Assembly (NCBI GenBank): GCA_020722815.1
Contig: DYKB01000015.1
Location: 1 to 64,000 of the forward strand
Length of the DNA: 64,000 nt
Direction: 5' to 3'
Source of the DNA: Caldithrix sp.
Lineage (GTDB): Bacteria; Zhuqueibacterota; Zhuqueibacteria; Thermofontimicrobiales; Sulfurfontimicrobiaceae
Shown here: one piece after another, positions 3,688 to 53,687 of the stretch
How positions within the stretch are numbered: position 1 is the stretch's first letter
Layout of the letters: the number at the start of each line of letters is the position of its first letter
The notes under the pieces: model-generated
What the model saw: only the letters and a program-made list of their open reading frames with translations
The model's database searches: none
What the model was told of the DNA's origin: nothing
Translations under genes and position numbers: made by a program

Positions 3688-3737
3688 CTTTTCCTCCAAA
3701 CGTTAACCAGAAAGAAATCTCTTGTCTTTATTTATAC

Positions 3738-4129
3738 AATCGTGTTCGGCACGCTCAAGAATTTGTCTTCCATTTCTGCAAAATAGAGCGAAAAGTCATG
3801 CCCGAATGTTTTTATTGGGCATCCATTATTAATTATAAGATGGATTCCCGCCAAAAACATGCGGGAATGACGGTGATCGGTGCTTAGATTGTATAGTACT
3901 TAATTCATTAATTTAATTAATCTTAAGACAAAATCCCAGTATCCGCTCAAAATGTGTTGGTAGATTAAAAATTAGTTTTTCAAATAAGTTGATTTTTAAG
4001 CATAGCGCATGGAGCAGAGGGCATAGCAATATTGGTTTTCGCTAGGCGCCATGCGCTATGCGCTTTGCATCTTAAATTACCCTCCTTTTTTGAGCGGATA
4101 CAAATCCCAAAAGTATGCCGAACACTATT
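3738..4129. mobile_element. MITE-like element family A, copy 1 (interrupted by a family B element)
   Basis: Termini AATCGTGTTCGGCACG...AGTATGCCGAACACTATT; inverted relative to the copy at 9629-9849; 392 bp minus 171 bp (insert + TSD) = 221 bp; flanks TTTATTTATAC / GCTATTTTTAC (8/11). Confidence 0.87.
3939..4101. mobile_element. MITE-like element family B, copy 1, nested in family A
   Basis: Termini GTATCCGCTCAAAA...TTTTTTGAGCGGATAC; perfect 8-bp TSD AAATCCCA (3931-3938 and 4102-4109). Confidence 0.87.
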
Positions 4130-4147
4130 GCTATTTTTACTATTAAC

Positions 4148-4562
4148 GAAATGGTTTTCGGATTTAGAAGAACTTGACCCACCCCTAAATCCCATAGCCG
4201 TCAGCTTACGGCATTAAGTTATTTAAAAACAAAATGTTGAAATCACATAAATATCCGGGTATAATACGCCTAAACCCTCACCCCAACCATCTCCCGGAGG
4301 GAGAGGGCGTAGCTATTCCCTCTCCCTCCGGGAGAGGGTTAGGGTGAGGGCAGTTTATAATTTAACTTAATTCTTAATTTTCAATGAGTTATCACCTTAA
4401 CCTGACAGCTATGCCCCTAAATCCCCTCCAGAGAGGGGACTTGGCGTTGTGATTTCAGGTAAAATTCAAAGAAAAAAGCCCAATTCCCCTCCTGGGAGGG
4501 GCCAGGGGTGGATTAAGTGAGCACTTCATTATCCTGCTCACAAAATCCGAAAACCACTTTGA
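4148..4562. mobile_element. Inverted-repeat element family C (interrupted by a family D element)
   Basis: Left AAATGGTTTTCGGATTT, right AAATCCGAAAACCACTTT; inner arms CCACCCCTAAATCCCCTCC / GGAGGGGCCAGGGGTGG are rejoined when family D is removed. Confidence 0.65.
4193..4413. mobile_element. MITE-like element family D, copy nested in family C
   Basis: Termini CATAGCCGTCAG...CTGACAGCTATG; 11-bp direct repeat CCCCTAAATCC on both sides (4182-4192, 4414-4424); central CCCTCACCC...GGGTGAGGG hairpin. Confidence 0.85.
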
Positions 4563-7047: not shown

Positions 7048-7369
7048 CATGTCCGTCAGGTTGAGGGCTTAAGTATCCCTTCAATAAAGGATGGTGAAAT
7101 CTACCCTTTCAAAGGTTTAAAACCTTTGAAAGGGTGTACGACCATGTTTTATTGAGTGGATACGGGCTTAATTTATTAAAAAACAATATGTTGGTTATAC
7201 AATAAAATTCATAGAATTCCGGGCATCTAACCCTCACCCCAACCCTCTCCCAGAGGGAGAGGGCGTAGCTATCCCCTCTCCCTCTGGGAGAGGGTTAGGG
7301 TGAGGGCAGTTTATAATTCAACTTAATTTTTAATTTTCAATTAGTTATCACCTTAACCTGACGGCAAAA
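7048..7369. mobile_element. MITE-like element family D, copy with nested family B element
   Basis: CATGTCCGTCAGGTTG...CCTTAACCTGACGGC; 10-bp direct repeat CCGCGCTTCC (7038-7047, 7370-7379); 322-99=223 bp, close to the 221-bp copy. Confidence 0.83.
7073..7163. mobile_element. MITE-like element family B, copy 2, nested in family D
   Basis: GTATCCCTTCAATAAA...TTTATTGAGTGGATAC; perfect 8-bp TSD GGGCTTAA (7065-7072, 7164-7171); internal palindrome CCCTTTCAAAGGTTTAAAACCTTTGAAAGGG. Confidence 0.9.
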
Positions 7370-8481: not shown

Positions 8482-8826
8482 TTAATATTCAATGATAACG
8501 GCAATCGCTGTAACGATAGAACGCATAATTTGTGGTGTCAGTGTTCCTAATTTCTGAATGAATCGTTGAACATCAACCCCACGCAATTGTAAAACATCTA
8601 CAGCAGATACTTTTGAAAGACCATTCTGTTTATCAGGTACAATGCGTACATGCCAGAGATTTTGATCGAGGTAATCTTTCCATTCTGTTAGTGGAGCCAC
8701 TAATTTTATAGGTAGTATACCAATTGCATCAGAATTAACTACCACCACAGGACGTGTTTTCCGAATTTCGGTTTCGATAGTCGGATCGAGATTCACCAAC
8801 CCAATATCACCGCGTTTGATATTCAT
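8482..8826 (-). CDS. Type II toxin-antitoxin system PemK/MazF family toxin
   Basis: MNIKRGDIGLVNLDPTIETEIRKTRPVVVVNSDAI...QNGLSKVSAVDVLQLRGVD. Confidence 0.9.
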   Translation of the reverse strand: MNIKRGDIGLVNLDPTIETEIRKTRPVVVVNSDAIGILPIKLVAPLTEWKDYLDQNLWHVRIVPDKQNGLSKVSAVDVLQLRGVDVQRFIQKLGTLTPQIMRSIVTAIAVIIEY

Positions 8827-9079
8827 CAAAAAAATCCCCTCCTTGCCATTCCTGACGTTCATCGGAAGTCTGGTCATAATAAATTTTCATTAATTCGGCT
8901 TGTTTTGCCAACATTTTGTGCCGTTCTTCTAATGAAAGGAGCATTGAATTGAGTTGAGGAGATTCAAAATCAAAATCTTTCTCTGCCAATTCAATTAATA
9001 GCCGATAAGCAACCGGCAATTTTGAATTCGGCAATTGTTGAATGAGGTTTTGAATATCATTATAAGTAATTGTTTCCAT
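8807..9079 (-). CDS. Putative antitoxin partner of MazF
   Basis: Small ORF overlapping the MazF start by ~20 bp; METITYNDIQNLIQQLPNSKLPVAYRLLIELAEK... with C-term QEWQGGDFFDEY. Confidence 0.7.
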   Translation of the reverse strand: METITYNDIQNLIQQLPNSKLPVAYRLLIELAEKDFDFESPQLNSMLLSLEERHKMLAKQAELMKIYYDQTSDERQEWQGGDFFDEYQTR

Positions 9080-9559: not shown

Positions 9560-9628
9560 TATATTGGACACCTCCATTAATTTTTTTTGGGTTAAGGCGA
9601 ATTAATTGAATATGAGCGGTAATTTACC

Positions 9629-9849
9629 AATAGTGTTCGGCATACTTTATAAATTAGGGCTTAATACTAATTAAATTAATAAATTAAGTGTTATAAAATA
9701 TCAGTGACGATCACAGTCATTCCCGCATGTTTTTGGCGGGAATCCATCTTCGCTGAAACAATGGATGCCCGATAAAAGCATTCGGGCATGACTCGTCGGT
9801 CTATTTTGTAGAAATGGAAACCAATTTCTTGAGCGTGCCGAACACTATT
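9629..9849. mobile_element. MITE-like element family A, copy 2 (intact, 221 bp)
   Basis: Perfect 14-bp terminal inverted repeats AATAGTGTTCGGCA...TGCCGAACACTATT; perfect 11-bp TSD GGTAATTTACC (9618-9628, 9850-9860). Confidence 0.92.
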
Positions 9850-10271
9850 GGTAATTTACCAGAAAATTTCAAAAATGTCAATGAAAAATTTTAAAATTGC
9901 CAGGAATGAATCGGGATAAATATCCCTCGATTCGTTCAATATTAAATTATTTAAATTTCAGACGAAAATTGCAACTCTCTTTGACTGACTGGAGTTAATG
10001 ATATATCAGTGAAAGTAAATCAGAATATCCCAAAAAATATGGCCACAGAATCAAGCGGCCACAGAAATAAAATGGGCACTTATGAAAAAGCTCCTCAAGA
10101 TGAAGCATCCTGACTCAGTTTTTTTCTGTGGCCTCTCATTTCAGTGGCCTAGTTAAAATTCTCATTTTTGCTTAGATTGAATGGCCATTATCATTTTTCA
10201 ATTGTAGCATAAATTCAGAAATTATTGAGTTTTGATTCAAACAACCCATTCACTTTACAAAAGTATTTCTC

Positions 10272-15848: not shown

Positions 15849-15986
15849 GTGTCGGTCCGCAAACGCTCCGATTCTGTCATAGCGAGGAGCGTTTTTGGCG
15901 ACGCAGCAATCTCCGCTGTTATTCAAGGGGATTGCTGCGGCAAAAAACGCCTTGCCATGACAGAATTGGATATTTTCGAACAAACA
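15849..15986. mobile_element. MITE-like element family E, copy 2
   Basis: GTGTCGGTCCG...CGAACAAACA; flanks CTATTTA / CTAAGTA (5/7). Confidence 0.75.
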
Positions 15987-18544: not shown

Positions 18545-18683
18545 GTGTCTGTCCGCAAAAGCCGCTGGTAGTGTCATTGCGAGGAGCGTTTTCGGCGACG
18601 CAGCAATTGCCGCTGTTTAACGATAGGATTGCTTCGGCAAAAAACGCCTCGCAATGACAGGTATTGGTATTTTCGGACAGACT
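18545..18683. mobile_element. MITE-like element family E, copy 3
   Basis: GTGTCTGTCCG...CGGACAGACT; flanks ATGCTTA / CTGCTTA (6/7). Confidence 0.85.
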
Positions 18684-24532: not shown

Positions 24533-24688
24533 GAGTCGGTCCGAAAATACCACGACCTGTCATTGCGAGGCGTTTCTTGCCGAAGCCTGTTTTATAGGCT
24601 CGCAATCCCGTCGTTAAACAGTGGAGATTGCTTCGTCGCACGAAACGCTCCTCGCAATGACAGTACCGGATGCATTTGCGGACAAACA
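24533..24688. mobile_element. MITE-like element family E, copy 5 (156-bp variant, inverted core)
   Basis: GAGTCGGTCCG...CGGACAAACA; flanks CTAAATA / CGAAATA (6/7). Confidence 0.82.
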
Positions 24689-24922: not shown

Positions 24923-25023
24923 GTATCCTCTTAATAATCAAGCGGAATTAGGCTTCGATAGGGTATCTATCGTGCCCTGAGCCTGTCGAAGGGTACCCTC
25001 TTCCCTTTTTTTTGAGAGGATAC
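24923..25023. mobile_element. MITE-like element family B, copy 3
   Basis: GTATCCTCTTAATAA...TTTTTTTTGAGAGGATAC; flanks CAATTTTC / CAAATTTC (7/8). Confidence 0.75.
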
Positions 25024-45356: not shown

Positions 45357-45512
45357 GTGTCTGTCCGAAAATACTCAATTCTGTCAGGGCGAGGCGTTTT
45401 TTACCGAAGCCTGTTTTTTAGGCTCGCAATCTCCTCGTCAAACGGCTGAGATTGCTTCGTCGCCCAAAACGCTCCTCGCCATGACAATACCGGAGGCTTT
45501 TGTGGACAGACA
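45357..45512. mobile_element. MITE-like element family E, copy 6 (156-bp variant, inverted core)
   Basis: GTGTCTGTCCG...TGGACAGACA; flanks TTAATTA / CTAATTG (5/7). Confidence 0.82.
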
Positions 45513-53548: not shown

Positions 53549-53687
53549 GTGTCTGTCTGCAAAAGCCGCCGGTACTGTCATTGCGAGGAGCGTTTTTGGC
53601 GACGAAGCAATCTCAGCCGTTTTAAGAGGGGATTGCTTCGGCAAAAAACGCCTCGCCATGACAGGTCTTGGTATTTTCGGACAAGCA
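53549..53687. mobile_element. MITE-like element family E, copy 7
   Basis: GTGTCTGTCTGC...CGGACAAGCA; perfect 7-bp TSD CTAATTC (53542-53548, 53688-53694). Confidence 0.9.

Follow-up and report, generated by a model that had tools for sequence, protein, structure and literature searches.

The 64,000-nucleotide stretch of a Caldithrix sp. genome analysed here (the window) contains one MITE, A, interrupted by another, B, and the locus raises the questions of which element came first, what moved each of them and how the palindromic core that A carries has spread. The initial annotation proposed that B is nested in A, and our analysis confirmed the nesting. Its placement of B (163 bp) and of the perfect 8-bp duplication AAATCCCA is exact. 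Each end of A had been set one base too short: the interrupted copy is 394 bp in length (3737–4130, not the 392 bp of 3738–4129) and the intact copy is 223 bp (9628–9850, not the 221 bp of 9629–9849). The length accounting itself stands, as excision of B and one duplication (394 − 163 − 8) leaves 223 bp, exactly the length of the intact copy. The reverse complement of the rejoined A aligns with the intact copy without any gap, with 185 of 221 positions identical, which confirms the inverted orientation and the homology of the two A copies across the junction. Owing to this exact length and gapless match, the intact copy acts as the empty site of B. An empty site was also sought in the KSB1 record JAFGMA010000268, which shares one gene (72% identity) and has no synteny at the site; a close relative that has this site was not found. 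One PemK/MazF-type toxin gene is located near the intact A copy (window 8482–8877).

Table 1. Coordinates of the nested locus and of the intact A copy in the window
Feature	Position	Strand	Remarks
A left target duplication (TTATTTATA), decayed	3728–3736		7/9 against 4131–4139; family duplication 9 bp
MITE A copy 1, interrupted (3737–3938 and 4110–4130)	3737–4130	−	ends CAATCGTGTTCGGCA / TGCCGAACACTATTG
REP dimer core, A copy 1 (GTCATGCCCG..ATCCAT / ATGGAT..CGGGAATGAC)	3795–3871	−	
B left 8-bp duplication (AAATCCCA)	3931–3938		
MITE B, GTATCC superfamily, IS66-type ends, in the AT-rich arm of A	3939–4101	+	
Palindromic core of B (GCATAGCGC...)	4000–4061	+	self-inverse match; core-only matches in relatives
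B right 8-bp duplication (AAATCCCA)	4102–4109		
A right target duplication (CTATTTTTA)	4131–4139		
Intact A left 9-bp duplication (GTAATTTAC)	9619–9627		
MITE A copy 2, uninterrupted	9628–9850	+	serves as empty site for B
REP dimer core, A copy 2 (77 bp)	9716–9792	+	identical boundaries in other MITEs and relatives
Intact A right 9-bp duplication (GTAATTTAC)	9851–9859		

The genome is fragmented (7.29 Mb in 247 contigs) and rich in repeats, several of which are located at contig ends, so the nesting could in principle be an assembly artefact. The exact 8-bp duplication, the gapless rejoining, the single continuous contig at the site and an independent second nested case at C76:4702 make such an artefact extremely improbable.

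The outer flanks of A had been read as an 11-bp duplication. Scanning of the flanks of 18 A copies gave 9 bp instead: left and right flanks are identical at a fraction of 0.815 at 9 bp, and the other lengths scanned between 5 and 13 bp all give 0.26–0.39. On the basis of this peak, we take the target duplication of A to be 9 bp. The flanks of the interrupted copy agree at 7 of 9 positions, and those of the intact copy at 9 of 9. Copies of B with 8-bp duplications are also found elsewhere; the duplication is perfect (8/8) in 10 of 18 copies and 7/8 in two more. Like other MITEs, both A and B possess terminal inverted repeats and target duplications, occur in multiple copies and are non-coding.

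The claim that B was active after A also held. At the window site the order is read directly from the nesting, and at the family level it is supported by divergence, through which B would be the later of the two. Besides the query, the genome contains 40 A matches, including the interrupted copy and some core-only matches; B is present in 18 full-length copies plus fragments. The mean pairwise identity is 78.5% within the A family and 95.1% within the B family, and this higher identity indicates that B is the younger family. In the examined DNA, our calls comprise 66 elements of GTATCC type, 28 of A type and 35 of TGTCTGTCC type, and a few of the least stringent calls look like chance. Two GTATCC elements are inserted within the span of A (in the window and at C76:4702), and the reverse nesting was not observed among these 66 GTATCC and 28 A elements. 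Three further A-like stretches (on contigs C97, C101 and C113) have GTATCC elements in or beside the A arms, with no scorable junction. One apparent three-level nest was noticed at C153:103788–104308 (L066 2989–3509): the innermost CATAACCGTCAGG element, with a 9-bp duplication CCCCTCTGT, lies within one CTGAAATTCTA element, which in turn lies within one A copy.

To which transposases do these ends belong? One perfect A end adjoins a broken relic DDE_Tnp_1 gene at C56:65488, whose protein scores best with the IS4-family model. Relative G006 has a 1325-bp IS4 element (transposase 56% identical) with ends CAATAGTGTTCGGCA and CAATAGTGTTCGACA; its reading frame is split and it shows no clear duplication to set beside the 9 bp of A. 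The ends of A are thus those of IS4 transposase elements, both at the relic and in G006. Judging from these shared ends, the non-autonomous MITE A was probably moved in trans by an IS4-family transposase.

For B, IS66 genes were gathered from relatives and searched, blind to the ends, for 8-bp direct repeats with 12-bp inverted ends. The search returned exactly three elements (L266, L273 and L247), all in class-level relatives, with ends GTATCCCCTCGG, GTATCCGCCCTG and GTAACTGTTCAG; all three have exact 8-bp duplications, as in B. The B end GTATCCGCTCAA and the GTAACCGTTCAC end of its sister family fit this IS66 series, although the match is short, about 10–12 bp. Based on this end similarity and on the duplication length, B and the GTATCC superfamily are putatively IS66-derived, and the transposase would again act in trans. 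The sole IS66 match in the own genome is one fragment at a contig edge, and neither an IS4 nor an IS66 copy that is intact and bears the exact A or B ends was found there. With ends matching IS4 (A), and with ends and 8-bp duplication matching IS66 (B), both elements appear to be ordinary IS-derived MITEs. A link between B and the DDE_Tnp_1 fragment at C113:40067 was also considered and rejected: the GTATCC elements close by do not form the ends of that gene but are separate MITEs in tandem that share GCATTTTA. In that tandem (C113:39506–39760), two different GTATCC MITEs have three copies of GCATTTTA in common, and one is inserted in the duplicated target of the other.

The initial annotation missed the widespread palindromic cores around which A and B are each built. 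The core of A consists of a pair of palindromes in inverted arrangement, namely GTCATTCCCGCATGTTTTTGGCGGGAATCCAT with its partner. Conservation along A is uneven: 0.956 for REP1, 0.861 for REP2, 0.84–0.85 for the ends, 0.67–0.73 for the arms and 0.63 for the spacer. According to Di Nocera et al. (2013, PMC3733652), CGTC REPs have one CGTC tag (often TGTC or CCTC), one 8–9 bp stem starting with AT, one loop of 4–5 nt and one CCA tail; they mostly form head-to-head dimers and are described as lacking a transposase. The A core has the GTC tag, the AT-starting stem of 8–9 bp, the CCA tail and the head-to-head arrangement, but its loop is about 10 nt; we therefore regard it as a CGTC-like variant and not as a member of the four published families. 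Across an alignment of 40 cores, taken from the own genome and from others, standard pairing occupies 95.9% of the pair cells, and five pairs have changed on both sides, compared to 0.8 in shuffles and 1–3 in slid controls.

The same core, with identical boundaries (GTCAT..ATGAC), is also present in a second family of the own genome, with ends GTATCCGTTCAC/GTAACCGTTCAC. This family has the GTATCC ends of the B superfamily and 8-bp duplications, GATTAATC and TAATTATA among them. Searching of 147 genomes with the whole A gave matches in 36 of them, the own genome included. In the other genomes, nearly all matches are confined to the core (query 88–164), and none is a full-length A. Among the relatives' cores, 16 had sufficient flank for a strict test, and four of these showed both inverted ends (ACCCGTTGTGC twice, CTTGCTACCGG and CATGAGTGTCC) and a duplication; shuffled flanks gave 0, 0, 0, 0, 0 and 1. 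The B core also matches in several relatives that lack the arms of B, and one full-length relative (70%) is present in G005.

We also took a census of REPs in 1.24 Mb, comprising the largest contigs and the window. Nine of the 17 REP dimers passed the strict ends-plus-duplication test, compared to 0–2 with shuffled flanks. Paired ends of three types enclose 14 of the 17 dimers and 19 of the 32 single tags, that is, 33 of 49 REP tags, against 6 of 300 random positions; the end definitions were made in the same analysis, two of them partly from the same sample, and the shuffled-flank control is independent of them. CCCG-REP cores were found in 24 of 28 A elements, and GTCATTGCGAGG-REP cores in 29 of 35 elements of the TGTCTGTCC family. 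The cores of the GTATCC elements are more varied (CCCG-REP 16, B-type 12, GTCATTGCGAGG-REP 10, CCTTTGAAAGG 7, CTTCGACAAGCTCAGG 3, others 18); given the 16 CCCG-REP cores, the B of the window belongs to a superfamily that elsewhere carries the core of A.

Several other elements were observed in the window. The TGTCTGTCC family, whose core is GTCATTGCGAGG...GCAATC and whose 8-bp duplication is family-wide (0.768), is present at 1424–1560, 15850–15986, 18546–18683, 24534–24688, 45358–45512 and 53550–53687. One 91-bp GTATCC-type MITE at 7073–7163 has a perfect duplication GGGCTTAA and the CCTTTGAAAGG palindrome as its core; another, of 101 bp (24923–25023), contains the CCCTGAGCCTGTCGAAGG palindrome and has a 7/8 duplication. 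About 50 bp off the right flank of A, at 4191–4413, lies an inverted-end element (CATAGCCGTCAG..CTGACAGCTATG) with a 9-bp duplication CCCCTAAAT. Rfam matches at 4275–4350 and 7211–7322 were below gathering scores and consist of simple inverted repeats hit by eukaryotic miRNA models; they were taken as chance.

The locus is very probably explained by two IS-derived MITEs, each composed of private arms around a palindromic core. A (ends CAATAGTGTTCGGCA, 9-bp duplication) would be moved by an IS4-family DDE transposase and B (ends GTATCCGCTCAAAA, 8-bp duplication) by an IS66-type transposase. One A copy would have landed in the intergenic region; later, B would have inserted into its AT-rich arm with an 8-bp stagger. 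The core of A, one head-to-head CGTC-type REP dimer, would spread as MITE cargo, having presumably been captured from REPs.

The cores could also be independently mobile REPs that were moved into existing MITEs by a RAYT tyrosine transposase. Such mobility would account for the exact core boundaries in unrelated backbones, and the genome does have 7 Y1_Tnp matches; but REP motifs were found in the examined flanks of none of these 7 loci, and RAYT was rejected as the mover, the cores showing no sign of RAYT-linked REPINs. Moreover, REP tags are rarely located outside MITE ends, no core-free backbone was recognised among the called elements, and the cores cluster by MITE family, the nearest neighbour belonging to the same family in 19 of 20 and 35 of 35 cases. 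We therefore consider independent mobility unlikely. Swapping of cores among MITE families, via recombination or template switching at their common palindromes, also seems improbable to us: whole cores still cluster by family, even though three hairpin-tip variants are each present in two families, namely TCCGTTAGCTAACGGA (A 10, G 4), ACTCGA..TCGAGT (A 4, G 4) and GAGCCTAAAAAACAGGCT (S 13, G 1). These variants may be older than the captures; they hint at some exchange or at the capture of several variants. For cargo carried by IS-derived MITEs, the clustering by family suggests that most of the core pattern arose from a small number of old captures that were then amplified, and not from continual swapping.

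Taken together, these observations suggest that MITEs pair transposon-derived ends with palindromic cores found across the phylum, and how repeats with no known mover of their own may spread. Carriage within IS-derived MITEs would plausibly account for the spread of CGTC REPs that lack a transposase, a question not settled in 2013, and the modular build makes this answer testable. More tentatively, CGTC-type REPs might persist without their own transposase as cores of successive IS-derived MITEs, the core being long-lived across the phylum and the ends replaceable vehicles. Other palindromic cores, of the GTCATTGCGAGG, CTTCGACAAGCTCAGG and GTCATTCCCG types, merit re-checking in other genomes, where MITE ends and target duplications may lie hidden around them.

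For bacterial MITEs in MITEs, or REP cores inside MITEs, our literature search found nothing closer than PMC3733652. As nested transposons, A and B give a clean relative age, the later element lying within the earlier one; this is ordinary in kind, and the difference here is that both partners are MITEs and that a third family also lands in A. REPIN/RAYT systems likewise have paired inverted REPs as the mobile unit, but here RAYT linkage is replaced by DDE-type ends and target duplications. The A core resembles the CGTC-superfamily REPs of PMC3733652 in its GTC tag, AT-starting 8-bp stem, CCA tail, dimers and dispersed high copy number; it differs in its longer loop and in its position between terminal repeats of IS type that are accompanied by 8- or 9-bp duplications. 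A partial precedent in the same paper is the occurrence of REP dimers within 41-bp palindromes in H. neapolitanus, for which the consulted sections describe no target duplication or IS link. Like the bacterial MITEs NEMIS, RUP and Nezha (listed in the same source), the elements studied here are 70–300 bp and non-coding, with terminal inverted repeats, target duplications and IS-shared ends; different from them, their palindromic cores are public, recurring between other ends elsewhere in the genome and in other genomes.
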